A DNA stretch of 21,842 nucleotides from positions 1-21,842 of the IMG/VR virus record IMGVR_UViG_3300007871_000319. One strand, given 5' to 3'. This document shows positions 1 to 19,793 of the stretch, piece after piece (positions within the stretch are counted from its first letter, which is position 1; each line of letters starts with the position of its first letter). The DNA comes from a virus. The notes below the pieces were generated by a model. It had not been told where the DNA came from. It saw only the letters and a program-made list of their open reading frames with translations, and did no database searches. The translations under genes were made by a program, and so were the position numbers.

Positions 1-53
1 CGAGATCTACACTAGATCGCTCGTCGGCAGCGTCAGATGTGTATAAGAGACAG
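1..53 (+). other. Illumina Nextera i5 adapter (assembly artefact)
   Basis: Bases 1-12 match the 3' end of the Illumina P5 primer, 13-20 are TAGATCGC (i5 index 501), 21-34 are TCGTCGGCAGCGTC, and 35-53 are the Tn5 mosaic end AGATGTGTATAAGAGACAG. Biological sequence starts at base 54. Read on the minus strand, the adapter adds an artificial C-terminus (beginning ...VSYTHLTLPT) to the tail-tip gene, which should be trimmed. The adapter shows the contig ends here because of the library and gives no information about a genome end. Confidence 0.98.
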
Positions 54-3480: not shown

Positions 3481-3495
3481 GTTTTGTTCTCTCCC

Positions 3496-4008
3496 TCACT
3501 GTACTGTGTCAGCCATTACGATAGAATCGTAGTCAGGAATTGCCGGCGCCTGATAAACGTGCCGTCGAAAATCGTAGCGCTCGACAATGATGTCAACGAT
3601 GACGCTGTCGCGTTTAACCACGATCGTCCTTTGCACTGGCCTAACGACCGTGTCCCAGCGCGTCGTCACCGTCACGTCGAGTAGGTAAGGTGGGACTTGG
3701 TCAGAACAGGTATCGACGAATCGCTCCACCACAAATTGACAACCCAGTGAGTCGCCGGCAAAGATGTAGGCGACCAGTTTCGTCAGATCGGACTGATTGA
3801 CACGGCCGTTGCAATCAACGTCTCCAAGTGGCAGTCCATCGTAAAGGCTGCGAGCACAGTAATCGCCAGCCAACAGAATAACGCTTAGGGACAGGAAGAA
3901 GGCCACTGCCCCACACATAACGTGTAGGGCAGTACCATTTGTGCTGTGCTTGTGATAATACTGCTGTTCGAAGTTCTCGGTTGCCTTCCACCTCCATTTG
4001 TGTTGCAT
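3496..4008 (-). CDS. Membrane-anchored protein with dockerin-like EF-hand loop
   Basis: The 170-aa product has a basic/aromatic N-terminus (residues 1-27), one transmembrane helix (about 28-47, ALHVMCGAVAFFLSLSVILL) and then a segment resembling half of a type I dockerin repeat: GDVDCNGRVNQSDLTKLVAY (62-81). The 12-residue loop D63-V-D65-C-N67-G-R-V-N71-Q-S-D74 fits a calcium-binding EF-hand. The positive N-terminus predicts N-in topology, so the loop and the Thr/Val-rich C-terminus would face the periplasm or exterior. There is no lipobox. The gene sits between DUF2460 and DUF2163 in the tail-tip block. The ribosome site before ATG 4008 is weak (AGGT about 11 nt away), and expression may rely on coupling to the 43-aa gene ending 7 nt upstream. 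Function unknown; lysis (spanin-like) or superinfection exclusion are guesses. Confidence 0.75.
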   Translation of the reverse strand: MQHKWRWKATENFEQQYYHKHSTNGTALHVMCGAVAFFLSLSVILLAGDYCARSLYDGLPLGDVDCNGRVNQSDLTKLVAYIFAGDSLGCQFVVERFVDTCSDQVPPYLLDVTVTTRWDTVVRPVQRTIVVKRDSVIVDIIVERYDFRRHVYQAPAIPDYDSIVMADTVQ

Positions 4009-4015
4009 GTTAACG

Positions 4016-4147
4016 TTACCTGTATTGGGACAAACGGCGTCCTAGGTCACGTCGTTGTCGTTTGCGTGTCAAGTACCTACGAAACCAACCTGCTGCATGC
4101 CATGTAGCTGCGCAGCCGATTATGATTATTACCAACAGCCACCACAT
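4016..4147 (-). CDS. Small single-pass membrane protein, 43 aa
   Basis: This short frame fills the only gap between the DUF2460 gene and the dockerin-like gene, with 7 nt free on each side. The translation starts MWWLLVIIIIGCAATWHAAG, a clear transmembrane helix, followed by a strongly basic tail (RRYLTRKRQRRDLGRRLSQY, residues 23-42). The positive-inside rule puts the tail in the cytoplasm. AGGG lies about 5 nt upstream of the ATG. The exact fit between neighbours and the coherent membrane design support a real gene. It could be a holin-like or host-membrane-directed protein, but no homologue is recognised. Confidence 0.6.
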   Translation of the reverse strand: MWWLLVIIIIGCAATWHAAGWFRRYLTRKRQRRDLGRRLSQYR

Positions 4148-4154
4148 GACTGCC

Positions 4155-4751
4155 CTATGCCTTTAATTCGACGACAGGCACGTCGGCGCCACGGGCTTGA
4201 TAGGTTTCGAGCGCCACCGGCAAATAGTCGGCATCGAAGCGAACCGGAATGTCGAACTCGAAATCAGCGGTGATGATTTCGCCGCTGCCGGGAGCCACGG
4301 TGAATGTCACGATACCCGTGCTGTCGTCTACTGTCCAACCGGAACCTTGTGCGACGCTGTCGATATAGACGGCTACCGTCGTTTCAATGGGCTTCAAGAT
4401 GAGGCGTGTGTGAGTCGTAGCGCCAGACGTGTAAGTTTTGACAAGCTGAAAGGTCTTCGTGCTCCCGTCACCCTCGCCGATCTGCTCTCCGGTTGCGCTG
4501 TAGTCGTCATGATTCTTGAAACGAAAGCCGTGCATCCGACCGCAGCGGGCATAGAAAAACTCGCGTAGCGTATCGAGGTCATCCTGTGACTTGACGCCAT
4601 AGGCGACATTCCAGCGTTCCCGTGCGTACGTCCAATTCTGATTGCGCTGCTCATGGCCGCTACCAAGCTGCACCACGTCTGTCGAAAATTCAGGCCCGCC
4701 GATGCTGCCGTAACTTATGTCGGTCGGGAAACGTACATCATGAAAGGCCAT
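4155..4751 (-). CDS. DUF2460 distal tail protein
   Basis: The protein begins MAFHDVRFPTDISYGSIGGP, the signature N-terminus of DUF2460 phage proteins (GTA gp12-like, distal tail protein role), followed by VVQLGSGHEQRNQNWTYARE, the usual second motif, and FFYARCGRMHGFRFKNHDDY. The C-terminal half (LILKPIETTVAVYIDSVAQG, WTVDDSTGIVTFTVAPGSGE) is the beta-sandwich part of the family, ending with FDIPVRFD. The 198-aa length is normal. I choose ATG 4751 over the upstream ATG 4760 because AAGGTG lies about 7 nt before it and the family starts MAFHD/MAFLE. It overlaps the preceding gene by 14 nt. It is expected to join the tail tube to the tip hub. Confidence 0.92.
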   Translation of the reverse strand: MAFHDVRFPTDISYGSIGGPEFSTDVVQLGSGHEQRNQNWTYARERWNVAYGVKSQDDLDTLREFFYARCGRMHGFRFKNHDDYSATGEQIGEGDGSTKTFQLVKTYTSGATTHTRLILKPIETTVAVYIDSVAQGSGWTVDDSTGIVTFTVAPGSGEIITADFEFDIPVRFDADYLPVALETYQARGADVPVVELKA

Positions 4752-5061
4752 CACAATCACCTTCTGTGTGCTGTCGCCTTACTGGCAATCTGCGCCTGCC
4801 GCGCTCATAGTTGCTGTACTCGTCTTGTATTTCAAGCCCATCTTCATTGAGTGCCAGGACCCTGTAGCCACCCCGGGGTTCCCAATCTATGCCTAAATGG
4901 GCTTCGATTTCATTCAGCAGGTACACGAATTTGTCTTGCCATTCATGCGGCATAGATTGAAGAACTGCTCGTGGTAAAGTCAAGTAATTCGCGTAGCTCA
5001 ATTCGAACCATGTATGAATTGCGCCATCCTCATAAATGACAACGTCTTCTTTTCTCGCCAT
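4738..5061 (-). CDS. Hypothetical tail-region protein downstream of tape measure
   Basis: I do not recognise a characterised family. The 107-aa product contains HTWFELSYANYLTLPRAVLQ SMP and WQDKFVYLLNEI, a sequence style I associate with conserved unknown proteins found right after the tape measure gene in siphoviruses with DUF2460/DUF2163 tail tips. The C-terminus is basic (YERGRRRLPVRRQH). No signal peptide or membrane helix is present. Its ATG overlaps the tape measure stop by one base (TAATG), and its end overlaps the DUF2460 gene by 14 nt, so it is translationally embedded in the tail operon. A role in tail-tip assembly is inferred only from position. Confidence 0.8.
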   Translation of the reverse strand: MARKEDVVIYEDGAIHTWFELSYANYLTLPRAVLQSMPHEWQDKFVYLLNEIEAHLGIDWEPRGGYRVLALNEDGLEIQDEYSNYERGRRRLPVRRQHTEGDCDGLS

Positions 5062-7988
5062 TACAGATTCCTCCGGCCACGTCCTATGGCCACCGCCGCA
5101 CGCGCCATCAACTGCGCCTCGCTCGCCTTGAATGATCGGATATCCGGTGTGGCCACGTTGAAATTGATATTCGTCACATCGGCTCCCTGTCCAAAAGCAC
5201 CCCAGGCACCGCGCCGGTTGAATTTACTGAGCGGTATGATTGCCTCGGGACCGGCCTCGCCGGCCATTACCAGTTGCGGTCTCGTGACAATGCCGCCGTG
5301 TTGCATCGCCGGAACCTCAGCCACCCCAGCGCCGATGTCCGGTCCACCGCCGAGCCAGCTAGGAACCGACTTCGCCAGGTACTGCAAAATGGTAGTGGCT
5401 AAAGCCTTAATGATGTTCGCGATTTCGTCGGCAGCATTGCGAGCCACCATGGTCATAATATCATTCCAGAACATCTTCCAGAACTCGCCGATGCTCAAGA
5501 TTTCACCCCTGAAGGTGCCGGTAGCTCGCTGCAACTCCTGTGTCAGAAAATCGGTCAATACGTAAGTCATGCTGCCGGTTATCTCTTCCACGATCTTGTC
5601 CATGGCATCCTCTGTCGCGCCCACAAGATTCTCGAATTCGTCACTCAGGCCCGCAACTTCCTTCTGCATGGTCTTGTAGACGATGCCGGCGTTAACGCCC
5701 ATGTCGGTGAGCCGCTGAGCCTCGTCGTTGATCTGTGAGATTCGCAAGGCGCGGTACTGTTCCCAAATGGCCGACTGTTCGTCTGCCGTCATTTGGTTCT
5801 CGCGCGCCACCCTCGCCAGCAATTGAAGTTCCGCGTCACGGGCCCGGCTTGCATCGTAAGTAGTACGCGTCGGACCACTATCGATCTCGGACCGCAAATT
5901 CTGTACGCGCTTGTGCATCAACTGGTAGACCAATATCGCATTGTGGCCGGCCTCAATCATGGCTTGGGCTTCGGCGTTAATTTGTTCGATACGCAGATTC
6001 TTGTACTGTTCCCAAGCCGACGCTGCCTGTGACGCGGTCAGGTCCGTGTACTCCAAATACTCGCGCAGCATGTTGATTTCAGCCGAACGTAAGTCATCGA
6101 CGGTCACCTTAGTTGTCTTCAGAGCATCATCAATGCTCGCAATGCTTGGTATCACCTTATCGGCGTCAAAAGCCGCTATCAATTGTTCAACCGCACTGGT
6201 CGTTTGGTCGGTGGTGCTCCGCATGGCGCTTTGCTTTGCGGCAATTTCGTCGAATACGGAAGTGTCGCCCTGGAACACTAAGCGTATCGTCTGTTCGGGC
6301 GTAAAGTCGGCGGCCGTCGGCGGCAGTCCCTCAAGCCGTTGTAAGCCCGCGTAGTCCATCGCAAAGATTTCCTGCACGCCACGCGGGTCGAGACTCTCCC
6401 TGAACTTGCGCCAGGCGTCGCTTGCCGTTCCGGTATAGGCTGCGAATGCTCCACTCCAGTGCTTGCCGATGTCGGTAAACTGCGTGGTGAATTGCTCCCA
6501 GGCGTAAGCGACATCGTCAAACTGCAAGGTGATCGCGCTGCTTAGCGTGCGCACAGCGTAATAGACGAGCTCGAGAACGTCACCGACAAAATACCCGATC
6601 GCTCCGAGCGCATTGCCGACCAATGAGCCTACCGACTTGACGAGATATTTCGCAAAGGCGTAGATCGTGTCACCGATCTTATCCAACCACAGGATCATCG
6701 CCTGTAGAGGGCTAGGATCAATCGATAGCGCCTTCTCTATTGCACGGCCCGCGTCACCCACATCATCCGCGGTCCGTTTCGCTGCGTCGCCAATGTTATC
6801 AAAGGCGCTCACTATGCCAGTCGAGAAACCCCCGACGAGATCGGCTATCGCGGCAATGATAGCCGCGACTGTACTGATAGCAGTCGTAATGACGCTGACG
6901 AACGCAAGGATAGCTCGCTTGTTCTCGCGCACCCACTCGGTCATCCACTCTATGGATCGTCGTAAGCCGCTACCGAAGTTCTCGAAGGCGCCTAGGGCCA
7001 CGTCCTGTACCGTCGACACCAACGTCTTGTAGGCGCCCGAGACAGTGTCACGCATGATAGCCGCCAACCGCTCAGCTTCACCACCGGTGTTCGCCAGCGT
7101 CTTTTGAAACTCCTTAGTCGCATCTACGGCGTTGAACAGAACAGCAGCAGCCCTGCCGGCACGCTGACCGAAGAGGCCGATCATTTGTGCCGCCGTGTAG
7201 CCGTCGTCTTTGAGATTCTTGAGCACCGAAAGCAGGTCGGCACTCTTGTATCCCATATCCTGTGCAATCTTAGCCGCCTGCTGCATGGCCATTGCAAGCT
7301 GCGTGCCTGCCATGGAGCTTTGGATTCCCGAGTCTCCGAGCTTGCCGATCATGCCTGCTAGCTCTTCGATCTCATAACCGAACGCCTTGGCCACGGGAGC
7401 CGAGTATTTGAAAGCCTCCGCCATCTGCTCCATGTTGGTATTGCTACGCGTCATGGTGCCGACAAACACGTCATTGACGCGCGTCAATTGTTCAACCGGC
7501 AATTGGAATGCGGTCAGGGCGTTAGAAGCAATGTCGGCGGCACGACCCAAGTCCACGTTAGCAGCCGTAGCCAGATCGAGCACTCCCGGAAGAGCCGCAG
7601 TAGCTTTAGTCGCATCAAAGCCCGCCATGCCGAGAAACTGCAAGGCATCACCGGCCTGCTTTGCCGTCCATTCAGTGGTAGCGCCCATTTCGCGCGCCTT
7701 GGCGGTGAGCATTTCCATTTCCTGTGACGTTGCCCGCATAACGCCGCCGACGGTTGCCATGGTCTGCTCGAATTCCATTCCGAGCGTCGCCGCTTTCTTT
7801 AGGCCCCCGATGAAACCGGCCATAACGCCGACGCCGGCCCCGAGCGCAAGCATGCCGGCGAGTGGCTTCAGCGTAGATTTGACGGAACGCGAGAAGTTCC
7901 CGAGCGCTTGCTGCGAGCGCATCAAGCCAGCCGTCAAGCCAGTAGTGTTCGCCTCGAGATGTGCGGTCAGTGTTCCTATGTTCGGCAT
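5061..7988 (-). CDS. Phage tail tape measure protein (TP901 type)
   Basis: The 975-aa product sets tail length and is ejected during infection. The N-terminus has the tape-measure opening (LTAHLEANTTGLTAGLMRSQ) and a Gly-rich membrane-active segment (about 48-70). The TP901 core follows (about 75-310), including GVMRATSQEMEMLTAKAREM, TTEWTAKQAGDALQFLGMAG and NVDLGRAADIASNALTAFQL. A second hydrophobic run lies at about 355-385 (ILAFVSVITTAISTVAAIIA). A 68-residue unit is duplicated at 636-703 and 719-786. The C-terminus (MQHGGIVTRPQLVMAGEAGP) is the typical end of many tape measures, where proteolytic processing may occur. At roughly 1.5 angstroms per residue the length suggests a tail near 145 nm (inference). 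The start lies 4 nt after the gpT-like stop. Confidence 0.97.
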   Translation of the reverse strand: MPNIGTLTAHLEANTTGLTAGLMRSQQALGNFSRSVKSTLKPLAGMLALGAGVGVMAGFIGGLKKAATLGMEFEQTMATVGGVMRATSQEMEMLTAKAREMGATTEWTAKQAGDALQFLGMAGFDATKATAALPGVLDLATAANVDLGRAADIASNALTAFQLPVEQLTRVNDVFVGTMTRSNTNMEQMAEAFKYSAPVAKAFGYEIEELAGMIGKLGDSGIQSSMAGTQLAMAMQQAAKIAQDMGYKSADLLSVLKNLKDDGYTAAQMIGLFGQRAGRAAAVLFNAVDATKEFQKTLANTGGEAERLAAIMRDTVSGAYKTLVSTVQDVALGAFENFGSGLRRSIEWMTEWVRENKRAILAFVSVITTAISTVAAIIAAIADLVGGFSTGIVSAFDNIGDAAKRTADDVGDAGRAIEKALSIDPSPLQAMILWLDKIGDTIYAFAKYLVKSVGSLVGNALGAIGYFVGDVLELVYYAVRTLSSAITLQFDDVAYAWEQFTTQFTDIGKHWSGAFAAYTGTASDAWRKFRESLDPRGVQEIFAMDYAGLQRLEGLPPTAADFTPEQTIRLVFQGDTSVFDEIAAKQSAMRSTTDQTTSAVEQLIAAFDADKVIPSIASIDDALKTTKVTVDDLRSAEINMLREYLEYTDLTASQAASAWEQYKNLRIEQINAEAQAMIEAGHNAILVYQLMHKRVQNLRSEIDSGPTRTTYDASRARDAELQLLARVARENQMTADEQSAIWEQYRALRISQINDEAQRLTDMGVNAGIVYKTMQKEVAGLSDEFENLVGATEDAMDKIVEEITGSMTYVLTDFLTQELQRATGTFRGEILSIGEFWKMFWNDIMTMVARNAADEIANIIKALATTILQYLAKSVPSWLGGGPDIGAGVAEVPAMQHGGIVTRPQLVMAGEAGPEAIIPLSKFNRRGAWGAFGQGADVTNINFNVATPDIRSFKASEAQLMARAAVAIGRGRRNL
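5631..6083 (-). repeat. Tandem 68-codon duplication inside the tape measure gene
   Basis: Residues 636-703 (nt 6083-5880) and 719-786 (nt 5834-5631) align without gaps; by hand I count 28 of 68 identical residues. The best-kept core is WEQYKNLRIEQINAEAQ versus WEQYRALRISQINDEAQ. The offset is 83 residues. The units look helical and are separated by a 15-residue linker. It looks like an old duplication that lengthened the tape measure. Confidence 0.75.
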
Positions 7989-10070: not shown

Positions 10071-10429
10071 AGCCACACCTGGCGCAGAAACCGACCGCCA
10101 GCGACATCAGGGCTCTTGGCATAACCACGAATCTCGTAAGCAGCGGCAATCGACAGCGGATCACCTTCTTCTGCCGACGACAAGTCGGCCAGTGTCCCTA
10201 AGTACAGATAGCCTTCGGCGACCACATCCTGTGCTAGATATACGACGGCACGTGACCGCACTTCACGCCCTCGCAGGTCTATGAACAATTCCTGCTTGTC
10301 CTCCCAGCGCACTGCCACCTCCACGGGATCGGCGAACGTACGCCCGCCCGCGCCGTCGCTGACAGGATTGCCCCAATATACCGCTGTCTGATTTAGCTTA
10401 CCGGATATGAACTTACTACGCCCCGTCAT
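10067..10429 (-). CDS. Head closure / stopper protein
   Basis: The 120-aa product (KFISGKLNQTAVYWGNPVSD, GAGGRTFADPVEVAVRWEDK, FIDLRGREVRSRAVVYLAQD, then GYLYLGTL and a C-terminal FLRQVWL) has the beta-barrel-like pattern of siphovirus head-tail joining or stopper proteins (HK97 gp7 / SPP1 gp16-like). Proteins of this kind close the portal channel after packaging and receive the tail. The position between the adaptor and gp10-like genes agrees. It overlaps the adaptor stop by one base and ends in a 4-nt overlap with the next gene. The assignment rests on pattern and order. Confidence 0.8.
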   Translation of the reverse strand: MTGRSKFISGKLNQTAVYWGNPVSDGAGGRTFADPVEVAVRWEDKQELFIDLRGREVRSRAVVYLAQDVVAEGYLYLGTLADLSSAEEGDPLSIAAAYEIRGYAKSPDVAGGRFLRQVWL

Positions 10430-10791
10430 CAGGCTATCACTTTCACCTCTGCCGGCCGCTTGCCGGATTCGATTTCCTTCAAGATACCGTGATGGTCGAG
10501 AATCATTGCCTGCTGGCCATAGCGCGAGTGCTTTAAACCCATGCCTGTCTTACCCTCGTACTTTGAGGCGGCGTTTCCGATCTTCTCTTCGGTAATCTGC
10601 GCGTCCCTCATACACGTGAAGTGTGCCGCCAGATATGCCTCAATCTCCCGCAGCAATGCCTCACCGTAGCTCTCTCCCGTCAGTGTGGCGCTGACGAACG
10701 TTTGGGCTGTGCGCAGAAACGGCGTCACGTCTTCACGCGTTAGGGCCGTGTCCATAATGTCGAGCACGTCTTGCTCGGTTGCATAAGGCAT
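10429..10791 (-). CDS. Head-tail adaptor (connector) protein
   Basis: The 120-aa product opens with MPYATEQDVLDIMDTALTRE and has the helices AQTFVSATLTG and LLREIEAYLAAHFTCMRD, followed by KYEGKTGMGLKHSRYGQQAM and ILDHHG. This combination (a helical bundle with a C-terminal arm) is typical of portal-binding adaptor proteins (HK97 gp6-like) in phages with this tail type. It begins one base after the sulfotransferase stop, with GAGG about 9 nt upstream of the ATG. In most related genomes this gene follows the capsid gene closely; here ten enzyme genes stand between them. Confidence 0.75.
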   Translation of the reverse strand: MPYATEQDVLDIMDTALTREDVTPFLRTAQTFVSATLTGESYGEALLREIEAYLAAHFTCMRDAQITEEKIGNAASKYEGKTGMGLKHSRYGQQAMILDHHGILKEIESGKRPAEVKVIA

Positions 10792-10792
10792 G

Positions 10793-11482
10793 TTAGGTCC
10801 TCACTTTCTCTGTCGGCGCGTGCCACAGGCTAGGATCAACGAATGCGTCCACGCGTTGCTTGTTCCACCTCAGTCCACAGCATGCAGCGATTGCGTGCAT
10901 TGTCGCGTGGCGCCCCGTCACCACATCATTGGACCATACAACTCTGATGTCACACCCCACGTCAGCCATTTCGTCGAACCGCAACTTGTGAGCGCTTAGC
11001 CATGTCCTCCAGCCATCGGCTGTGTGATATGCCCGCATGAAGCTGGTACGTAAACAGGACGCTATTATGTCATCATCTGGTCGCCTGAGAATTATCCAGC
11101 GAGCATCGGGAAAAGCCGCGTGCCACAGTGGCCACAGAAGGCATAGCTTGGCTCCCTTGTAGAACCACGGACCACCGCTGTATCCCTGTCGTTCCATGAT
11201 TCCAAGTACGGCATTACGAATACGCGCAGCTTCCGTTGGAATGCTGTCGCGAACACGTGCTATATCCGGCAACGGGTTTTGCCCCATACGATCAGCACCG
11301 ATGCTAACGAGGTAAGGCTTCACGATCCTGTTTCGTATCTCCTGATTCTCGAACATGCCCTTCTTGTTGTTGCTGTTAGGACCGGACATAACCCCACCGA
11401 ACGCACCGCAGAGATTAACAATGCCGGCAACGAGAGAAGTGCCCGACCGTGCCGCGCCGGTTATGAGAATCGGGGGTTGCAT
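10793..11482 (-). CDS. PAPS-dependent sulfotransferase
   Basis: The 229-aa protein has the two PAPS-binding elements of the sulfotransferase superfamily: an N-terminal phosphosulfate loop, LITGAARSGTSLVAG (residues 6-20), and a 3'-phosphate motif, RWIILRRPDDDIIASCL (128-144), with Arg133/Arg134 and Ser142. WFYKGAKL (about 106-113) fits the acceptor/catalytic region. It would transfer sulfate from PAPS to a hydroxyl or amine of an unknown acceptor, most likely a sugar. ATG 11482 is chosen over the longer ATG frame at 11524 because AGGAG lies about 7 nt upstream and the P-loop begins right after the start, as is usual. It overlaps the APS-kinase-like gene by 22 nt, which fits a PAPS donor and user pair. 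Confidence 0.87.
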   Translation of the reverse strand: MQPPILITGAARSGTSLVAGIVNLCGAFGGVMSGPNSNNKKGMFENQEIRNRIVKPYLVSIGADRMGQNPLPDIARVRDSIPTEAARIRNAVLGIMERQGYSGGPWFYKGAKLCLLWPLWHAAFPDARWIILRRPDDDIIASCLRTSFMRAYHTADGWRTWLSAHKLRFDEMADVGCDIRVVWSNDVVTGRHATMHAIAACCGLRWNKQRVDAFVDPSLWHAPTEKVRT

Positions 11483-11826
11483 ATTTCGTCTCCTGTCGGT
11501 TCTTCGTACGTGGTTCCTTCCCACAGCGTGCCGCCTGGAATATAGATTAATACTGACTCTTCGAACAACGCTCTGGCTTCATCGCGCCATATACGCTTAG
11601 GTGAAACGCAAGCGACGATTGCCATTCCACCGTTAGCTTCCGCTCCCGCAGCCTCCTTAGCAAGCCGCATGATATTAGCGCGACGCCCTTCATCATCAAA
11701 TGACGCTGGATGCTCATGTCGCATTTCCTCACCGTCGCAGACAAGACAAGAATTCATCTGTGCTTGCAATTTACGAGCCAGCGTCGTCTTGCCGGCTCCT
11801 GCCCGTCCCGTTATCCAGATCACCAT
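11461..11826 (-). CDS. Short adenylylsulfate (APS) kinase-like P-loop protein
   Basis: The 121-aa product starts MVIWITGRAGAGKTTLARKL, with a Walker A motif at 7-15, then CLVCDGEEMRHEH (Asp31-Gly-Glu-Glu, the APS kinase LDGD-x-R position), FDDEGRRANIMRLAKEAA and AIVACVSPKRIWRDEARALF, which track APS kinases (ENIRR, AFISPYR). APS kinase makes PAPS from APS and ATP. Typical enzymes are near 180-200 aa; this one jumps from the VYVDTP strand equivalent (IYIPGG) almost directly to GTTYEEP. It lacks the Lys/Arg-rich lid with the FTGID motif that closes over APS. It may be a minimal kinase, a kinase for another phosphate acceptor, or inactive. TGATG overlap with the cupin; the sulfotransferase follows. 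Confidence 0.82.
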   Translation of the reverse strand: MVIWITGRAGAGKTTLARKLQAQMNSCLVCDGEEMRHEHPASFDDEGRRANIMRLAKEAAGAEANGGMAIVACVSPKRIWRDEARALFEESVLIYIPGGTLWEGTTYEEPTGDEICNPRFS

Positions 11827-12164
11827 CAGGTTGTCTCCATGTCACCGCCAGGCTTGGCGCGTTCAATGTCGCCGTCGTCGTATTCAACGAACATCTCCTC
11901 AATCATGGTACTGTCCTCATAAGCACGGAACTCATGCCATACGCCGGGTGCGACGCTGAACTCCTGTCCGACGGTCAATGTCACTTCGCCGTCTGCAGTT
12001 ACAATACCGACTTTACCTGAGAGCACAACAAATAAATTGTACTTTTCGCGGTGCCGGTGCCAGGAGCAGCGGGTGCCCGCTCTCAACTTCAGATAGCTAT
12101 TGGCGTGGGTTGAGTCCTGTCGCAGCAACCAGCGCTCCCCCCACAACTTCTGTTCCCTAATCAT
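11826..12164 (-). CDS. Cupin-fold protein (mannose-6-phosphate isomerase C-terminal-like)
   Basis: The 112-aa product is a single cupin barrel. Motif 1 is G30-TRCSW-H36-R-H38-REKYNLFVVLSG and motif 2 is VGQEFSVAPGVWHEF, with His77. The usual glutamate of motif 1 appears replaced by Asn43, so metal binding would use three histidines and perhaps Asn43. Single cupins of this shape act as sugar epimerases, isomerases or binding proteins. ATG 12164 is chosen over TTG 12218 and ATG 12197 because it gives a modest 8-nt overlap with the GT2 gene and starts at the conserved KLWGERWLL strand. In this block a role in nucleotide-sugar or acceptor modification is plausible but not shown. Confidence 0.8.
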   Translation of the reverse strand: MIREQKLWGERWLLRQDSTHANSYLKLRAGTRCSWHRHREKYNLFVVLSGKVGIVTADGEVTLTVGQEFSVAPGVWHEFRAYEDSTMIEEMFVEYDDGDIERAKPGGDMETT

Positions 12165-12903
12165 GTTGCGCTGCCCGCTGTTTGCAATTAGCCGCATACA
12201 ACCGCTTGTTGTGCTCAAGCAGGCGTCGGTACTCAGCCTTCGGTATCACCTGGTGCGCGCGACTGTGGTCTTGGTGCACCGTCAACAGATCATCGCGTAG
12301 CACAAACGGCACACCGGCCGCCTCGATCCTGTCACGGAAATCGTCATCGTCATACCCGATACCTTCAGCGAAGCGCTCGTCGAAGCCACCAATCCGGTGA
12401 TAAGTGGCTGCTGGCAGCGCCGTGCAAAAGTGCAGGCGCCGGTTGTTGAGCACGCCGTGCTGGTACCACATGTGATGCTGATAAGTGAAGCTTTCAAAGC
12501 CATCAGGCATGGTGCACTTTACGCCACTCTCGCAAGCACACACTACGTAGCAGTCGTGGTGTTGCTCGAACTCATGGTCGAGACCAGACAAGATATTGCT
12601 TTTGTGAAAGCCCTCGGGATTAGAAATGACGAGGTACGTGCCGTGCGCGAGCCGGGCCGCTTGGTTGAATGACAGCACTGGGCTGTGACATGATTCACGA
12701 GGTGGAGTCTGCTGAACGTAAGCCAGAGGTACCATGTCGTTGAAGCCCGGCAGCATGTCAAGCACAGCATCATCATTCTTGCTGTCGATCACAAGGATGA
12801 TTTCATAGTCGCGCCGATCATGGTAGTGGTGGGCGAATGATGCCAGGGTGCGTGTAAACTGCTCGACGCGCTGGTAATACGGTAACAGGATACTGTACTT
12901 CAT
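12157..12903 (-). CDS. GT2-like family glycosyltransferase
   Basis: The 248-aa product has a GT-A-type N-terminus (MKYSILLPYYQRVEQFTRTL, strand then helix), EIILVIDSKNDDAV (nucleotide-binding Asp40/Asp44), SFNQAARLAHGTYLVISNPE (80s-90s, the region of the DXD, here Asn-Pro-Glu), and an acceptor-side GGFDERFAEGIGYDDDDFRD (172-191) with the expected acidic base cluster. It should transfer a sugar from an NDP donor. The N-terminal LPYYQR replaces the more common IPTYNR pattern. Length is close to a minimal catalytic domain; no membrane segment is present, so it is cytoplasmic. A strong GAGGGAG site precedes ATG 12903, and the start overlaps the GT32-like stop by 4 nt. Confidence 0.88.
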   Translation of the reverse strand: MKYSILLPYYQRVEQFTRTLASFAHHYHDRRDYEIILVIDSKNDDAVLDMLPGFNDMVPLAYVQQTPPRESCHSPVLSFNQAARLAHGTYLVISNPEGFHKSNILSGLDHEFEQHHDCYVVCACESGVKCTMPDGFESFTYQHHMWYQHGVLNNRRLHFCTALPAATYHRIGGFDERFAEGIGYDDDDFRDRIEAAGVPFVLRDDLLTVHQDHSRAHQVIPKAEYRRLLEHNKRLYAANCKQRAAQHD

Positions 12904-13730
12904 GTTATCTCCCTCTTGCTAATCTCACGGTGGACTGCATGCACGTGGTCGAGCAGCGGTCCGGTGTAGGCGTAGATATTCGTGTCGTCGATAGTGGTCA
13001 TGTGCTGCGGCAGACGCCAAGAGCCGGCGTACCAGTGAATGCCAACAGTGGCCTCTGATAGTTGTAGCGGTTTTCCAGCATGTAGTCTGTCATCACGCCA
13101 ACTTGGCACCGGATAGACACAGGACGCGGGTAGCGTTGCGACGCCTGGCGTCCACCGAGCCGGATAACGCCTAAGGCAGCGTTCCAGGGCATACCGGCCC
13201 GCGCTCTGATAAACTCGCGCGTCGTAGCTGACCAATGCTTCGCGTTTAACCTCGTCTATGAACGCTGCTTGCAACGCGGATAGCATAAAGCCGACCGGAT
13301 AGCAGGTGCGACCCCGATCACTGGATTGCACCGGCAGCCATACGCTGGCATTATCACCCAATACCAGCATCGGCTTGACATAGAGAATATCAAAATCAGA
13401 CCAGACGCCCCCGAATGTCCACAGCAGATGCCATCGTAAACAGTCTGACTTGATTACTTCCGGAGTATCTGCCGCAAGCCCAAGGACATCGAAATTGAAC
13501 GCTCGCAGGGTCGCGTACTGTGCAAGTGAGTCGAACCAATCCACGCCCCCCTCGGCGTGGACTGATTGTTCCCGTGATTTCCACGGTTCTGCCGTGCTCG
13601 TGCGTGTCGGGTACCATACGTGTATGTGCCAGTCTGGATTGAAGTGGGCGAAGGACATGACCGTCAACAGGCGCATGTACGACAGCGGTCTGTTGCGCCC
13701 CCAGTACAAGTGCGTCAGCTTCGGTATCAT
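12900..13730 (-). CDS. GT32-like glycosyltransferase with DXD motif
   Basis: The 276-aa product begins MIPKLTHLYWGRNRPLSYMR, the typical opening of DXD-containing GT32-type transferases (MIPKIIHQIW). It carries SDCLRWHLLWTFGGVWSDFD (95-114): the conserved Asp-x-x-Arg, the Tyr/Phe-Gly-Gly and the metal-binding Asp112-Phe-Asp114. A later GIHWYAGSW resembles the C-terminal His-x-x-x-x-W of this family. It would add a hexose or HexNAc to an acceptor. I choose ATG 13730 rather than the GTG at 13769 because it gives an ATGA overlap with the upstream gene and matches the family start. No membrane anchor is visible. Confidence 0.88.
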   Translation of the reverse strand: MIPKLTHLYWGRNRPLSYMRLLTVMSFAHFNPDWHIHVWYPTRTSTAEPWKSREQSVHAEGGVDWFDSLAQYATLRAFNFDVLGLAADTPEVIKSDCLRWHLLWTFGGVWSDFDILYVKPMLVLGDNASVWLPVQSSDRGRTCYPVGFMLSALQAAFIDEVKREALVSYDARVYQSAGRYALERCLRRYPARWTPGVATLPASCVYPVPSWRDDRLHAGKPLQLSEATVGIHWYAGSWRLPQHMTTIDDTNIYAYTGPLLDHVHAVHREISKREIT

Positions 13731-15277
13731 ATGTGGTCGTCCCGCCGGCGAATATGGCAGCAGTGCCACACGTTGTCGTCGGTAGCCTTCGTCGGGTCGT
13801 GTCGGCGCGGTGGCACACGTTTAACCACTTCACCGCCTGCAGCCGTCACAAGCCTCTCGAAGTGCTCCGCTGTACGCCGTACCAAGCCACGCTTCTGTCG
13901 CCCGATGTCTTCTGCGTAGACTTCCGGTCCCGGTGGTGCCGCATATTGGATTGATAGCAGCCCTACTGAATTAAGGCTGCGAATCGCATGTTTCAGTAGG
14001 CCATACAAATCTATGTCCGTCATGTGCTGCGCCACCAAGTGGCAGAGTGCGAACTCGAAAGTCTTGTCAGGCAAGGCCTCCGGCTCGGTGTACCCGCACT
14101 CGGTAACGTCAGCCACGCTTGTAACCGCCGATTCGACGATGTCCAACACCGACACCGCCCCGGTCAACCGCTTCAAATCTCGTGTGCAGGCGCCGGTACC
14201 GACGCCGATATTGAGCACATGATGACCACGTATCAGTCGATCTGACAATTGGTGAAACTTGAGTACGCCGCTCAACCGCGATCCTGTCAAGTATCGTTTG
14301 GCGCCAGTCTCGTGCTGCTCTTGCCAGAATTCGTGCATGGCCGCTCCATAGGCCTGCTGCCATGAGCTATCGATATGCGGGCCGCGCTGCCATCCACCCG
14401 CTACCATCTGGTGGTAGTTCCACCAGAAATCGCACCGGAGACACAAGCTGCTCGGTCGTCGCCACAGCGTTTTGAAACCAGTCTCAATCTCTTCCCATGT
14501 ATCGGTCAAGATGTTCGCGAACTTAGTCTCACTACGGATAACGTCGTAGGCGCAGAAACAGCAGTCGCCGTTCGGCTTGACTTGCAGTGCGCCTTTGTAG
14601 CCGTCGCAAACCCAGTTACGATACATGATTGAGCGGTCGATCACTCCAGTAATCGTCTTGCCGCCCCAGTGGATTTCTGCGTCCCGGGCCCACTGGACTC
14701 GGTGACCATCGAAGGCCGCTTGCACGCGTCGCCTGTCATGGCCGGTGACATCGTTGCAGCCGATCTCAATCTGAAATGCTGGTTTGTGCTTGTTGCGATA
14801 GGCGATGAACGCCAGGGCATTGTCGTAGCACTGTTGCCAGATCAGGCCCGTTAGACGTTCAAAGTCCTCTCCGGTAGTCACGAAAGACAGCGTGATGTTG
14901 GTGCACGTCTCCAGAATGTCATCGAACTTGTGCGGAGTCAGCATCGAGGCGTTAGTGTTCAATCCCAAGTATGGGGTCATCACGTTGATGCTGCGCCCGT
15001 AGCGAATCTTGTTGAATATGTCACGGTCTGCCAGTGGCTCGCCAAAGCAGAACATGGCGCCGATCTTTAGATTAGCAGCTTTCACCTTGTCGGCTATCGC
15101 CCTGAAGGTTTCCTGTGACATCCAACTCACTGGCCGTTCCATGCGGTCATAGAGACAGAAAGTGCACCGGGCATTGCAGAAATTGGTTGTTTCGACGTAG
15201 ACCAGCTTAGGATATCGGGCAATATCCCAATGGTGCCGCATCTTTTCGTGGCATTCTGCTAGCGTCGGTACAGGCAT
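13727..15277 (-). CDS. Radical SAM/SPASM-like enzyme fused to a class I methyltransferase
   Basis: The 516-aa product joins two enzymes. The N-terminal radical SAM part has the Fe4S4 motif TTNFCNARCTFCLYD (Cys34, 38, 41) and FCFGEPLAD (Gly79-Glu-Pro). A cysteine-rich C-terminal part (GDCCFCAYD around 240; SLCLRCDFWW around 280) is SPASM/twitch-like and probably holds an auxiliary cluster. From about residue 350 a Rossmann methyltransferase follows: HHVLNIGVGTGACTRDL (motif I), VLDIVESAV, FEFALCHLVAQHMTD and the post-motif strand SVGLLSIQYAAP. The two parts are in one frame with no stop between them. It overlaps the upstream methyltransferase by 19 nt. ATG 15277 has only a weak ribosome site; ATG 15241 is an alternative. 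Substrate unknown. Confidence 0.88.
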   Translation of the reverse strand: MPVPTLAECHEKMRHHWDIARYPKLVYVETTNFCNARCTFCLYDRMERPVSWMSQETFRAIADKVKAANLKIGAMFCFGEPLADRDIFNKIRYGRSINVMTPYLGLNTNASMLTPHKFDDILETCTNITLSFVTTGEDFERLTGLIWQQCYDNALAFIAYRNKHKPAFQIEIGCNDVTGHDRRRVQAAFDGHRVQWARDAEIHWGGKTITGVIDRSIMYRNWVCDGYKGALQVKPNGDCCFCAYDVIRSETKFANILTDTWEEIETGFKTLWRRPSSLCLRCDFWWNYHQMVAGGWQRGPHIDSSWQQAYGAAMHEFWQEQHETGAKRYLTGSRLSGVLKFHQLSDRLIRGHHVLNIGVGTGACTRDLKRLTGAVSVLDIVESAVTSVADVTECGYTEPEALPDKTFEFALCHLVAQHMTDIDLYGLLKHAIRSLNSVGLLSIQYAAPPGPEVYAEDIGRQKRGLVRRTAEHFERLVTAAGGEVVKRVPPRRHDPTKATDDNVWHCCHIRRRDDHI

Positions 15278-15966
15278 ATCTGTATGAGTCCGTAAGCTGG
15301 GTAGCGCACGTCACGCGTGGCGACCAATGTCATGTCCTTGAAAAATAACGGCACAGTCTGCCGCGTGAATTCTCGCACATGCCCCTCCACTAGCCGCGTC
15401 TGGTCATAGCCGGGCATCTCCGCGCCGTAATCTCGCGCGTGTTTGCCGCCAAGTGGGTAGGTTACCAGCAGGTGCCCTCCGGGTCTGACTAACAGCTTGA
15501 TGTCGTCACACAAGGCCATGACGTTACACGATAGATGCTCCAGGACCTCGGACACAACCACAATGTCATATTTTTTGGCCGGCAGGGTGTCGGTGCACAG
15601 GTTAAAGTCAATCAAACGCACACCTTCGACATCATACTCCGCGACTTGCCCCTTCAGTTCACGCACGATGATATCGTAAAGATCGATGGTACACGCGGAA
15701 TTGGCGGCCTTCCAGCAGTAGGACGTGTACGGGTACCAAGAACCGAGCTCGCAGGCCGTATTGATGGTGACAGGATCAATGTGATTGTCGTTACAAAGCT
15801 TTAGCATGCCCTCAAAGCGCGGCCAGTGATTAACGAAGTAACTCAGAGAGTCTGGGTTACCACCACGCTCACGATAGAATTGGGCGATCCCGTCGTAGAA
15901 GTCAGTCAACTTAGTAGTGACAAAATCGGCAAAGTCCTGACGATAGTGTTCCAATGACGGATTCAT
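15259..15966 (-). CDS. SAM-dependent class I methyltransferase
   Basis: The 235-aa protein has a Rossmann methyltransferase core: ACELGSWYPYTSYCWKAANS (71-90, motif I with Glu-Leu-Gly-Ser in place of GxGxG), TIDLYD (acidic end of strand 2), VRLIDFNLCTD (Asp120 region), YDIVVVSEVLEHLSCN (133-148, motif IV) and VRPGGHLLVTYPLGG (160-174). This looks like the ubiE/methyltransf_11-23 type acting on small molecules or sugars. An N-terminal helical extension (1-65) may form the acceptor lid. The start overlaps the rSAM stop by 4 nt (ATGA); only a weak GGGG lies upstream, so it is probably coupled. It may provide O-methylation of the same product that the radical SAM proteins modify. Confidence 0.9.
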   Translation of the reverse strand: MNPSLEHYRQDFADFVTTKLTDFYDGIAQFYRERGGNPDSLSYFVNHWPRFEGMLKLCNDNHIDPVTINTACELGSWYPYTSYCWKAANSACTIDLYDIIVRELKGQVAEYDVEGVRLIDFNLCTDTLPAKKYDIVVVSEVLEHLSCNVMALCDDIKLLVRPGGHLLVTYPLGGKHARDYGAEMPGYDQTRLVEGHVREFTRQTVPLFFKDMTLVATRDVRYPAYGLIQICLYRR

Positions 15967-17075
15967 ACGAATGCCCCGTGCGGAATGTCCATGTCTATGA
16001 AGCGGTTAATTGTTCGGTTGCGGTCAAGAAACTGACAGCGCTCACAGCCGCGTGCATCGAAATTGAGGTAATCCTGGCGATACTCCTCACTTGTCCACAG
16101 TTGCTCAAGTGTCTGGTTGGCCAATGAAGCCACGAGACCACGCTTTCGATAAGACATGACGCAGCAGCGGTATACGTTCAAATCAGCGCCGATGTAAGGT
16201 ACCAATGTCTGGAATGGACAACGCTTGAACTCCGGACTACCCTGCAGAAGTTCACCGAAACGCAAGTCGAAGTTATTGATGACTCGGAACGTGTCAGTCG
16301 ATAACGTGACGGCCATGCGGCAGCGCCTAGCCGCGTCTTCGCCGAAGCCGTCGAAGTACGACGCGTTTTGAGCTTGAAAGACGGCAGAAAGGCGAATGTT
16401 GTCGACACCCAGGTCCCGGGCTAGTTCAACTCCGCGAATCACTTCCTGCCAATTGTCCTCTGTTATCACGTAGCCGATGCCGATGACAAGGGATGACTGA
16501 GCCTTGTTGCGTGCAGCCACAAGCGCCTTGATGTTCTCAAGAACCTCCGCCAACACAGTGCCGGGCACGCGCCGCTCTTTCTGATACGTGTCCGGCGTTG
16601 CGCAGTCCAGCGATATACGGACCCACGTCGCAGACAGTAATGCTGCGCGTATGTCCTCTCCCATCTTCCAACCGTTAGTTACGAGCGCGGTCTCCATGCC
16701 TAAGCTGCGCGCATAGTTCATAAGGCCAGCACAATGTGGATGCACCGTCGGCTCACCACCGCCGGTGAATTCAATCGCCTTGACTCCCATCTTCGCGCAA
16801 TCGGACAATATGCCGCGAGCTTTCTCGTACGGCATCATGCGATGTGGATTTCTCCGCAACGTGCCATCCGGTCTCTTTTCCGCGAAGAACTCCGTGTATC
16901 CGTCTATGCGGTATGCGCAAAAGTTGCAGTTCTGGTTACACTTGTCTGACGGAACGAAGTGCACGTGTATCGGAGCCGGCACGCGGCTCAGGCGCAACGC
17001 GTGCAGTCTGTCCAGGTGCATCAATATCTTATCGTCTCGGTAGACGTTCTCAGGCATGTGGTACCATCCAATCAT
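15963..17075 (-). CDS. Radical SAM protein with SPASM/twitch-like C-terminus
   Basis: The 370-aa protein has the radical SAM cluster motif SDKCNQNCNFCAY (Cys46, 50, 53), EFTGGGEPTVHP (105-109, SAM amino-group contact), ALVTNGWKMG, and WVRISLDCATPDTYQ (ribose/substrate region). The C-terminus has Cys286, Cys304-305 and a Cys344-x-x-Cys347 pair, consistent with a SPASM or twitch auxiliary Fe-S cluster. SPASM enzymes commonly act on peptides or on sugars, in reactions such as C-C or thioether formation, epimerisation and dehydrogenation. The start is either ATG 17075 (26-nt overlap with the GT8-like gene, GAGGTG about 10 nt upstream) or ATG 17057 (8-nt overlap, GGATGG about 6 nt upstream). The methyltransferase follows with an ATGA overlap. 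Confidence 0.92.
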   Translation of the reverse strand: MIGWYHMPENVYRDDKILMHLDRLHALRLSRVPAPIHVHFVPSDKCNQNCNFCAYRIDGYTEFFAEKRPDGTLRRNPHRMMPYEKARGILSDCAKMGVKAIEFTGGGEPTVHPHCAGLMNYARSLGMETALVTNGWKMGEDIRAALLSATWVRISLDCATPDTYQKERRVPGTVLAEVLENIKALVAARNKAQSSLVIGIGYVITEDNWQEVIRGVELARDLGVDNIRLSAVFQAQNASYFDGFGEDAARRCRMAVTLSTDTFRVINNFDLRFGELLQGSPEFKRCPFQTLVPYIGADLNVYRCCVMSYRKRGLVASLANQTLEQLWTSEEYRQDYLNFDARGCERCQFLDRNRTINRFIDMDIPHGAFV

Positions 17076-17748
17076 GCTGAGTTAGCACCTCGTGCGGGCG
17101 CGGTGTCCCGTGGAAACAGACTATGCTCGTATCGTCTGGTAACGGCAAGCCAGCCCGCAGCACATGATGCTTGTAACTGATTATGCCGGGCTGCACTGTT
17201 TGTACTGCAATGATTCGGGCGCCAGCATCCTCTAGGGCTTCTGTGATATAGTTTTGGTCGCCGCGATATCGCTTGTCGCCCAGCTCCAGTGTGATGCCGC
17301 GCGGCAATACCGAGAATGTGCTGCGTTGACTTCTCATCTTGTCCAATAGGCCGGACAACAACCAGGTGAAGTCGCCGTTCCAACCCATGATGCCTGATGC
17401 AAAATTGAGGTCGCGAAAGCCCCGCAACATGATGATTTCATTGGTGGCTAATGTGTGGACGGCAGCAAGTAAAGGCTCGATGCTGCCAACTAAAACGGTG
17501 TCGAGGTCTAGGTAGAGCACCGGCCCCATGATTCTGAATACTTCGAGCTTTGACCACCAGGCTGGTAAATCGTGTCGCAAGTCCACCACGTGACAGCCAA
17601 TTCCGTCCAACGCAAAGGCCGTGAGGTCGGTCAGAAGCACGCATTGATGTGGTCGCGATACGTGAAGATCGACCATGCGCAGGAGCCGATGCACATAGTC
17701 CACGTCATAGTCACCACCACTCTTGAGCACGAAAGCGATCGTGTTCAT
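17050..17748 (-). CDS. GT8-like glycosyltransferase
   Basis: The 232-aa product looks like a short GT-A fold transferase: MNTIAFVLKSGGDYDVDYVH, HQCVLLTDLTAFALDG, then WWSKLEVFRIMGPVLYLDLD with the metal-binding DLD at 81-83 and TVLVGSIEPL after it. Near the end CFHGTPRPHEV (213-218) matches the His-x-x-G-x-x-K/R-P metal- and phosphate-binding motif of GT8-like enzymes. Similar proteins occur in uncultivated phages. It would transfer a sugar from an NDP donor using Mn/Mg. A strong AGGAG lies about 8 nt before ATG 17748, and the start shares an ATGA overlap with the upstream gene. No membrane segment is present. Confidence 0.87.
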   Translation of the reverse strand: MNTIAFVLKSGGDYDVDYVHRLLRMVDLHVSRPHQCVLLTDLTAFALDGIGCHVVDLRHDLPAWWSKLEVFRIMGPVLYLDLDTVLVGSIEPLLAAVHTLATNEIIMLRGFRDLNFASGIMGWNGDFTWLLSGLLDKMRSQRSTFSVLPRGITLELGDKRYRGDQNYITEALEDAGARIIAVQTVQPGIISYKHHVLRAGLPLPDDTSIVCFHGTPRPHEVLTQHDWMVPHA

Positions 17749-18413
17749 GGGTAGATCTCCTGTGGATCGACGATGGGAAACTCGCCCAGTGCACTTCCCG
17801 GTGTCGCGTTTATAATCTCGACTCCCATCTGCTTCGCGTCACGCGCGATGAACGGCCACGGCCGCAGAAAGCGCGTATAGGGGTCATGTTTCGGGATGCC
17901 CGCCGTCGGGTGTGTCGTATGCCAGTTATTGTTGCCGTCTATCTTGCGCATATCATAGCCCAAGAGGATGATGCGGCGCACGCCGAAGTGTACCGCCAAG
18001 TTGACGGCACAGGCGCCGGAACTCAGATTCCAAGCTAGGCGATGTGGTTGTGGTTGCAAGCCCTGCGGTGAATTGCGCCGCTCAACTACTCGAACGAATG
18101 GCTTATGAACATGCGATGGACAGACGGTTACCTTAAGGCCCGGGAAATACTGTAATCGCCGCTCATGCGATGACAGCCACCGACAATCGCCGTAGAACAG
18201 CACGTCGATCCAGTCGGCCAGTTGGTAGGCGTTATTGACCGCGATGACGCGACTCCCGCGTAACCTCTCAATGTCAACCTGTGCTAGGCTCGGACCACCG
18301 CCTAATATGAAACACTCGCCGTCAGGCCACAGCTTAGGTACCGTCCACAGGGGCTGTGGCTTCCTCGCCGGTTGCTTCACCGGTGGTCGATTCGTCACCT
18401 TTACCGTCACCAT
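17745..18413 (-). CDS. DUF115/GT42-like protein (putative sialyltransferase-like)
   Basis: The 222-aa product has the layout of the DUF115 / CstI-like group: ECFILGGGPSLAQVDIERLR (33-52, Gly-Pro-Ser-Leu nucleotide-binding loop), VIAVNNAYQLADWIDVLFYG (56-75, with Asn-Asn-Ala), GDCRWL, then SSGACAVNLAVHFGVRRIIL LGYDM (about 130-155, Gly-x-x-A and Leu-Leu-Gly-x-Asp). These are seen in GT42 sialyltransferases and in the motility-associated DUF115 glycosylation proteins. The catalytic His/Tyr of GT42 cannot be assigned safely. ATG 18413 is supported by GGAGAGGGAG about 7 nt upstream, even though this places the first 80 nt inside the previous gene in another frame. It is the first enzyme gene of the block. 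A sugar transfer role is probable; the donor is unknown. Confidence 0.7.
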   Translation of the reverse strand: MVTVKVTNRPPVKQPARKPQPLWTVPKLWPDGECFILGGGPSLAQVDIERLRGSRVIAVNNAYQLADWIDVLFYGDCRWLSSHERRLQYFPGLKVTVCPSHVHKPFVRVVERRNSPQGLQPQPHRLAWNLSSGACAVNLAVHFGVRRIILLGYDMRKIDGNNNWHTTHPTAGIPKHDPYTRFLRPWPFIARDAKQMGVEIINATPGSALGEFPIVDPQEIYP

Positions 18414-18789
18414 GTGCCTGCTCCCTCTCCTGTTCCTCTGCTAACCTGCGGGCATCTTCCTCCTGTTGCTCTGCTTCTTTGCGGGCGACATCATTGACCA
18501 GCGCGAACGCGTCGGAACGGCGCAGCGGCGCATCGTTAAGATTCCCGCCGCTGCGCTCGTTGTATACATCGTACCAACCGCCGCCGCGTCCAACAAGGCG
18601 AAGATGTGACACTGGAAGTTCTGGCGCGTCCACTACGGGACCGCTGTCAATGCAAACGAATTTGTCACGGCCACCACGTAGTGCCGATTCGTCGCATTCC
18701 ACTTCATCTCCGGGCCGTAGCACGTGCACCTTGCCGTCAAGGCGCATCGAATGTGCGCCGACACCGGATTTCATTCTGAACAACGCCAT
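18334..18789 (-). CDS. Hypothetical protein with charged C-terminal tail, next to capsid gene
   Basis: I do not recognise a family. The 151-aa product begins MALFRMKSGVGAHSMRLDGK, has a small beta-rich part (VHVLRPGDEVECDE, FVCIDSG) and SHLRLVGRGGGWYDVYNERS, then a helical, strongly charged stretch (ARKEAEQQEEDARRLAEEQE, about 103-122), ending in a Gly/Glu/Thr-rich acidic tail. ATG 18789 is chosen because GGGAGG lies about 5 nt before it and 11 nt separate it from the capsid stop; the longer open frame upstream is inside the capsid gene. This type of small protein between capsid and connector genes is common and may be a structural or accessory head protein. Its last 80 nt overlap the start of the DUF115-like gene. 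Confidence 0.78.
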   Translation of the reverse strand: MALFRMKSGVGAHSMRLDGKVHVLRPGDEVECDESALRGGRDKFVCIDSGPVVDAPELPVSHLRLVGRGGGWYDVYNERSGGNLNDAPLRRSDAFALVNDVARKEAEQQEEDARRLAEEQEREQAHGDGKGDESTTGEATGEEATAPVDGT

Positions 18790-18800
18790 GCGAACCTCCC

Positions 18801-19793
18801 TTAGCTGGCGTGTACGATACCGCAGTTGCCATCCTGATCGGCGCGAATCTGCGGCACCATGATTTCCATCACCTTGAAGTGACTTACCATTCCGCCCTCG
18901 GTGTTCCACTCGACCACTGTCGGCTGCAGGCCGATGACCATGCGCACGCTCTCCTGACGCATCTCGGCCAGAATCACGTTGTCGTTGGTGAGCTTGTCGG
19001 ACACCTTGACATCCTCGACACCCTCGATCTCCTTGATACGAGCACGAATCGTCTTCCCACCGGACCAATTGGCAGTAGAGTATTCGTCGTCAAGTGGCGC
19101 GTCGAAGTTCGTGGGAATGTAAAGAATCCACGGGCCGTAATGTTTGGCGTCGATGGCCGCCTGCTTCATCGTCAACACGTCCTGAATGACGACGGCTCCG
19201 GTGGCCGCGCTGTCGTCCCAGTTGGCCGTCAGCGAAGCAGTGCAACGATTGGGGTGGTTCATGTAGCCGTAAATGGTGCCGCCACCGTACGTGATACCAC
19301 CGGTACCGACAAACAGTAGCGTTTCCAGGAATTCTGCGCACTTTGTCGTCGCAATTGCCGTCTGAGTCATGTCCAGCGCCATACCGAGCTTACGGCTGGC
19401 CTCCAGCCTTCTGATGTTGAAGCTGAAATCCTTATGGATAATCGGCAGCGGCAAGTAGTTCATGGCGTACTTGACAGCATCGCTGGCGCTGCGCTTGACG
19501 GCGGTCATGTCCATTTCGGCCGCCGACATATCGCTCAGGTCCTCGTACTCGAGAACCGTCGTACCGAGGCCGTTGGTGATGTTAAATACCAGGCCACGGC
19601 TCACGAGATCATTGGCGCCAACCAGTCGGTCGCGGGAAATCTGTACGACAGTGTCGTCCATGGCCTTCCATTCGTCTTTGCGCAGCAGTGTGTTGGTCCG
19701 CAGCGCATTGACGTTGAAGCCGCTATTGAGCAGGCGGCTCGCCACGTTTCCGGTGATGCCTTGATTCGTGATAACGTCTGTGATAGCATCCAT
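18801..19793 (-). CDS. Major capsid protein (encapsulin/linocin-type HK97 fold)
   Basis: The 330-aa protein has the encapsulin/linocin M18-like capsid pattern, including PLPIIHKDFSFNIRRLEASR (about 115-134), ALDMTQTAIATTKCAEFLET, LLFVGTGGITYGGGTIYGYM (the P-domain/E-loop region), and the A-domain stretch ILYIPTNFDAPLDDEY, VIGLQPTVVEWNTEGGMVSH and KVMEIMVPQIRADQDGNCGI at the end. Such capsid proteins assemble without a long N-terminal delta domain, which fits a separate scaffold upstream. AGGAG lies about 9 nt before ATG 19793. It follows the decoration-like gene by 28 nt. Confidence 0.95.
   Translation of the reverse strand: MDAITDVITNQGITGNVASRLLNSGFNVNALRTNTLLRKDEWKAMDDTVVQISRDRLVGANDLVSRGLVFNITNGLGTTVLEYEDLSDMSAAEMDMTAVKRSASDAVKYAMNYLPLPIIHKDFSFNIRRLEASRKLGMALDMTQTAIATTKCAEFLETLLFVGTGGITYGGGTIYGYMNHPNRCTASLTANWDDSAATGAVVIQDVLTMKQAAIDAKHYGPWILYIPTNFDAPLDDEYSTANWSGGKTIRARIKEIEGVEDVKVSDKLTNDNVILAEMRQESVRMVIGLQPTVVEWNTEGGMVSHFKVMEIMVPQIRADQDGNCGIVHAS

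Follow-up and report, generated by a model that had tools for sequence, protein, structure and literature searches.

The ten-gene block at 10793–18413 is read, with moderate confidence, as an allelic form of a conserved locus for virion decoration. Its cytosolic enzymes would provide a virion protein with a glycan that is variable, capped with sulfate and primed by a DUF115 glycosyltransferase. The window is the whole virus record (21,842 bases) and belongs to a virus of bacteria. On the minus strand, the modules follow each other as head genes, ten-gene block, connector genes and tail module (ORF list and PHROG matches). All ten ORFs of the block were intact and lay on this strand, which is the virion-gene strand. 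According to PHROG, capsid and decoration genes flank the block on one side and connector and tail genes on the other. Neighbouring block genes overlapped by 1–62 nt (several times by 4 nt), and the gap between the last one, a sulfotransferase gene (ST), and the structural gene HT1 was 1 nt. Translational coupling of the block with the virion genes is likely because of these overlaps and the 1-nt gap. The GC content of the block equalled that of its surroundings. Catalytic motifs were intact in the enzymes checked, i.e. both radical SAM proteins, the glycosyltransferases (GTs), the cupin, the kinase and the ST. Four GT-family proteins were encoded (Pfam, PHROG and model fold). The earlier note, made from the letters of the DNA, had described ten genes on one strand chained by overlaps over this span, and all of these ORFs were present. 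Its family calls were borne out by Pfam and, for the DUF115 and GT8-like genes, by PHROG. Its proposal of one cassette, co-expressed with the virion genes by position and serving a modified and sulfated glycan, was likewise supported.

The block fills a slot with constant borders. One border is the gene of the major capsid protein (MCP; 18801..19793, minus strand; phrog_771/264), whose product was 36% identical to the MCP of Brevundimonas phage MaInes. The other is HT1, a head completion/head-tail gene (10429..10791, minus strand; phrog_302, phrog_37884; DUF4054 weak). A small MCP-adjacent protein, adj (18334..18762, minus strand), carries the motif GGGWYDV.N..SG..LND.PL and is an accessory protein or a candidate acceptor. 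It had no Pfam or PHROG match, and homologues were found in nearly all cassette-bearing relatives. No conserved Ser/Thr-rich tail or extension was seen in the adj homologues read or in the candidate acceptors.

A scan of viral contigs with the MCP found 11 relatives. In the five closest (47–56% MCP identity), DUF115 was always at the same place, and GT8 and ST were present where the contig reaches (L006 ends inside DUF115). Among the six relatives at 34–40%, one (L007) had DUF115 alone and the other five had no cassette. The scan with the ST gave 158 viral contigs, 80 of which were kept. At 83 ST loci, the structural gene after the ST was HT1 in 80 cases and HT2 in 2, and the contig ended in 1. 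Where an MCP was found upstream, DUF115 started 374–865 bases past it at all loci but one (L043), where the cassette lies between HT1 and HT2. An alignment of 22 MCPs, used for a scan not selected for ST, found 558 relatives, the 80 closest of which were read. Of the 46 complete slots among these best 80 of 558, some of them on near-duplicate contigs, 46 contained DUF115 and 43 contained the ST. As mostly cassette-bearing phages went into the alignment, this statement on the DUF115/ST slot is valid for this clade only. The constant core of the slot is DUF115 first and ST last. The smallest cassettes consist of adj, DUF115 and ST (about 1.8–2.4 kb from MCP to HT1), and the largest comprise about 9 kb. 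The word "inserted", used in the earlier note, is therefore misleading: the slot was always occupied in the near clade, and it is a conserved slot rather than the site of a single insertion.

The fixed first gene encodes a DUF115/Maf/GT42-like glycosyltransferase (17745..18413, minus strand). It matched phrog_4603 (E 7e-40), which is labelled 'alpha-2,3-sialyltransferase'. Its score against Pfam PF01973 was 22.5 bits and thus under the curated cut-off of 34.6, and its profile matched CstII (E 4e-5). The best PDB match of the AlphaFold2 model (pLDDT 93) was Maf 5mu5 (Z 16.0); the CstII sialyltransferase reached Z 13.2, and 173–188 residues were aligned with these structures. Judged by its model, the DUF115 protein has a Maf/GT42-type fold, with a putative CMP-nonulosonate donor and a putative protein acceptor. 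Maf1 glycosylates flagellin in the cytoplasm (PMC4065374). A KdsB/NeuA-type CMP-sugar synthetase was located among the terminase/portal genes of two relatives with a transketolase-type cassette, which is consistent with a predicted CMP-activated donor for DUF115. The nonulosonate synthase NeuB was sought in 32 relative records and was absent from all of them, so a host-made donor must be assumed in most cases.

Pairwise identities of DUF115 and MCP were correlated, with a Mantel value of 0.62 over 24 common loci. The same measure gave 0.55 for MCP and decoration protein and 0.48 for MCP and HT1, so that DUF115 tracked the MCP no less strongly than the structural genes did. The correlation of ST and MCP was weak (0.24), the ST identity range being restricted by the way in which the loci were found (selection). 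These correlations would fit a DUF115 that recognises the capsid side and an ST that recognises the changing glycan.

The fixed last gene is the ST (10793..11482, minus strand; PF13469, Sulfotransfer_3, E 1e-7, 32.9 bits vs a cut-off of 27). By homology, it starts at the ATG at 11482 and not at 11524. The 5'-phosphosulfate and 3'-phosphate binding motifs were RSGTS and RRPDDDIIAS in the window, and residues R12, S13, T15, S16, R133, R134 and S142 were invariant across 40 homologues. The best PDB match of the model (pLDDT 94) was a tyrosylprotein sulfotransferase (TPST; Z 16.0), followed by bacterial PAPS sulfotransferases (Z about 13). By Pfam, fold and motifs, the protein is a predicted PAPS sulfotransferase, and the fold leaves the acceptor unsettled. 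No match was obtained with tblastn of the ST against annotated phages or with the ST profile against PDB sequences; the structural matches came from the fold comparison. A scan of genomes for a host turned up the ST in two MAGs (in one of them by itself), a prophage region in one isolate and two weak matches in Nocardioides. Sulfotransferases have been catalogued in phages with no function known for them (PMC10580990). Through the slot, many of them obtain a common genomic location, a partner enzyme and a role that can be tested.

The ST could also be a protein sulfotransferase that acts directly on tyrosines of virion proteins, with DUF115 and the cargo acting separately. The higher similarity of its model to TPSTs than to bacterial STs and the minimal cassettes of DUF115 and ST only (L135, L140, L159, L173, L178 and L183) agree with such an activity. 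We nevertheless regard it as improbable, since the ST tracked the capsid gene less than DUF115 did, two STs stood together with sugar cargo in some slots, and a common fold does not fix the acceptor.

The proposed supplier of PAPS is a compact APS kinase without the lid region (11461..11826, minus strand; PF01583, E 4e-17). It comprises 121 residues and keeps the P-loop and the APS-binding core (GRAGAGKT, DGE..R and SPKR). The profile of the compact family matched APS kinases (E 2.5e-22) up to about position 100, and the family ends at the point at which full-length enzymes have the start of their lid. Its score was below that of the full-length equivalog TIGR00455 (58.9 bits vs a cut-off of 138.7). 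When the compact family was scanned alone, 72 viral loci were found, and 48 of the 72 had an ST within a flank of roughly 3 kb. HT1 or HT2 was also present at 46 of these 48 loci. Some of the other 24 adjoined a divergent Sulfotransfer_3 protein. This co-occurrence supports PAPS supply by the predicted kinase. If virions of these phages do carry variable sulfated glycans, the interpretation of APS kinases in phages as 'sulfur metabolism' would need revision.

The middle genes of the window, referred to here as cargo, begin with a GT8-like glycosyltransferase (17050..17748, minus strand; phrog_1962, glycosyltransferase, E 2e-32), which is common in the slot. It carries the DxD motif that was intact in the block GTs, had no Pfam match and showed a weak profile match to GT8/glycogenin. 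It is followed by a radical SAM/SPASM enzyme (15963..17075, minus strand; PF04055, E 2e-18, SPASM), for which sequence comparison gave cytosylglucuronate decarboxylase as the only relative of solved structure, and by a SAM methyltransferase (15259..15966, minus strand; PF13489, E 7.5e-9). Next is a radical SAM/SPASM-methyltransferase fusion (13727..15277, minus strand; PF04055 and PF08241), with which an exact-peptide scan found nothing. CX3CX2C was intact in both radical SAM proteins. The GT32-like glycosyltransferase (12900..13769, minus strand; DXD; PF04488, Gly_transf_sug, E 1e-5) probably starts a few codons inside its ORF. A GT2/GT7C-like glycosyltransferase (12157..12903, minus strand; PF02709, Glyco_transf_7C, and PF00535) precedes a sugar-isomerase-like cupin (11826..12218, minus strand; PF07883, Cupin_2, E 2e-10). 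The cupin had intact metal motifs (HxH...PGxxH) and was WbuC-like with a score below the cut-off, and its cluster occurred at 11 slot loci, window included.

SPASM radical SAM proteins and methyltransferase fusions also occur in peptide maturation (weak NCBIfam matches), and phage glycosyltransferases are able to modify DNA (PMC12619734). A block making a small molecule or a RiPP-like modified peptide, or modifying DNA, is very unlikely all the same: what stays constant is DUF115 and ST, the radical SAM genes being optional cargo, and in the block no gene was identified for a precursor peptide, an exporter or nucleotide modification.

The cargo was exchanged between relatives. Elsewhere, it comprised an SDR, a zinc alcohol dehydrogenase, split transketolase halves, a nucleotide-sugar dehydrogenase and an NAD epimerase, as well as B12-binding radical SAM proteins, extra sulfotransferases, methyltransferases and GT2, GT9 and GT29-like domains. 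The identifiable families were sugar or group-transfer enzymes. At an MCP identity of >90%, relatives had cargo in common; at 70–90%, 22 of 28 pairs shared none (DUF115/GT8, ST and adj clusters were omitted from this count). One relative, L108, has the order of the window: DUF115, GT8, radical SAM, another gene, radical SAM-methyltransferase, GT32, GT2 and ST. It lacks the cupin and the APS kinase. Its radical SAM and radical SAM-methyltransferase proteins were each 59% identical to those of the window, within a range of 36–59% for the syntenic copy. The GT32-like and GT2-like genes were syntenic in L172 too.

Variable middle content would also be expected of a passive moron or insertion without function, and this explanation is extremely unlikely. 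Among the closed slots read, >90% had conserved ends; motifs were intact, overlaps were tight, and a syntenic copy existed at 36–59% identity. The earlier note had suggested a search for conserved synteny in viral collections and had named occurrence only here, scattered nearest relatives and broken active sites as signs of a passive insertion. Each of these signs fails: the slot recurs in viral contigs, L108 repeats seven window genes in order, and the active-site motifs are preserved.

A serotype-conversion (Gtr-like) cassette, for which a membrane flippase or a membrane-bound transferase was the criterion, was rejected as the main reading, as 481 of 488 slot proteins were without a predicted membrane segment.

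A modification of the host envelope late in infection, for competitor exclusion or for the release of progeny from receptors, is a related alternative. Loci for surface polysaccharides typically contain GT2, GT32, cupin, epimerase and nucleotide-sugar dehydrogenase families, and phage glycosyltransferases are known to serve in serotype conversion (PMC12619734). We consider this rather unlikely, given slots almost without membrane proteins, the late-gene position and a Maf-type core linked to capsid evolution. The earlier note had left the choice between virion surface and host envelope. The virion is favoured over the envelope on account of the solubility of nearly all slot enzymes, of the Maf-like nature of DUF115 and of the way in which DUF115 tracks the capsid gene. 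Its further suggestion of receptor masking found no support in the analysis. The position near capsid genes is linkage, and the target is not proven by it.

For virion decoration, the following course is conceivable. Upon late expression, DUF115 would act in the cytoplasm and attach the first sugar, probably a CMP-activated one, to a structural protein, the likeliest acceptor being the capsid protein or adj. The GT8, GT2 and GT32-like enzymes would extend the glycan, and the radical SAM enzymes, methyltransferases and cupin may rework sugars or donors. PAPS would be made by the compact APS kinase, and the ST would cap the glycan with sulfate. Given the exchange of middle genes among relatives, the sulfated glycans would differ even from one related capsid to the next. 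The acceptor, the donor, the order of steps, the sulfate on virions and the benefit are what we infer. The weak tracking of the capsid gene by the ST and the missing cassette in more distant MCP relatives count against virion decoration, as do candidate acceptors in which no conserved Ser/Thr-rich extension was seen, the dispensability of pmgO and pmgQ in phage P1 and a compact kinase without the full-length region.

A wider version is plausible and falls a little short of what we would call probable: uncultured tailed phages that form a large clade may have a particle 'serotype locus' with a capsid-tied Maf-like primer, exchangeable cassettes and a cap made by ST and compact kinase, giving antigen-like variable sulfated surfaces. 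If virions carry variable sulfated glycans, particles would be diverse in an O-antigen-like manner, and their adsorption, stability and recognition could be affected.

We found neither the slot nor sulfated phage virions described in the open-access literature. By its genes, the window system is probably a form of virion glycosylation for which no earlier description was found, the modification itself being putative. A DUF115-ST pair is also present in a prophage region of Euryhalocaulis caribicus JL2009. There, it is flanked by a head morphogenesis protein gene and that of the head maturation protease, and the head-gene backbone differs from that of the window. One late region of phage P1 contains pmgO, with 29% identity to the DUF115 protein of the window, and pmgQ, with about 30% identity to the GT8-like gene. 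Both are non-essential in the laboratory according to CRISPRi (PMC10695390). In a D3-like Pseudomonas phage, an unbroken DUF115 frame lies directly 3' of the MCP, and in CcrColossus, DUF115 follows a large tail gene and is followed by more sugar genes. P1 and D3-like phages are simpler relatives: as in the window, a DUF115 relative stands in a late or head-gene context, but no sulfotransferase, radical SAM or APS kinase was annotated alongside in the stretches read. The slot supplies a testable function for pmgO/pmgQ and for the D3-like DUF115 genes.

Chloroviruses and giant viruses encode their own capsid glycan enzymes. Unlike the window, these are eukaryotic viruses with another capsid and other enzymes. 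The O-glycosylation of flagellin with nonulosonic acids by Maf resembles the window in that Maf was the best match of the DUF115 model and acts cytosolically on protein. The window DUF115 differs from Maf in being shorter and phage-borne, and no NeuB-type gene accompanied it in the 32 records. In mycobacteriophages, capsid and tail tube subunits of the virion are glycosylated (Freeman et al. 2023, as reported in PMC12619734 and PMC13313380). According to these reports, phage-encoded glycosyltransferases and methyltransferases are involved, as would be the case in the window. Compared with what is reported there, the putative decoration system of the window differs by its Maf/GT42-like core, its ST and APS kinase, its fixed slot in the head operon and its swappable cargo.

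The small protein encoded next to the major capsid protein (MCP) gene (window 18334–18762, motif GGGWYDV-N) occurred almost exclusively where DUF115, a Maf/GT42-like glycosyltransferase, was present. The APS kinase of the sugar and sulfate cassette (window 11461–11826) belonged to a compact family without the lid region, which was found at 72 viral loci. It is possibly a minimal PAPS-forming enzyme.

The tail genes (window 1780–4760) were of the gene-transfer-agent type and comprised DUF2460, a phiJL001 Gp84/BR0599 baseplate hub and an NlpC/P60 peptidase. This gene type hints at an alphaproteobacterial host for the virus. The leftmost ORF ended in SYTHLTLPTSDLV (window 1–60), which we take to be a translated sequencing-adapter artefact, frequent in assemblies. 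Adapter sequence thus probably makes up this end of the contig, where the tail protein is probably truncated.

Two relatives carried a KdsB/NeuA-like CMP-sugar synthetase gene amid their terminase/portal genes (L104, 6163–6894; L105, 6988–7728). In a further relative (L023, 2–2782), the slot occupied by the cassette encoded a protein of 926 residues with a GT29 (sialyltransferase family) domain, which is unusual for phages.

Downstream of its MCP gene, Pseudomonas phage FBPa47 had an uninterrupted DUF115 frame (~6924–7642 of locus L101), where the annotation shows other hypothetical genes. Phage P1 carried pmgO (DUF115) and pmgQ (GT8-like) at 3593–6151 of locus L100. This pair looks like a simpler relative of the window cassette in a laboratory phage.
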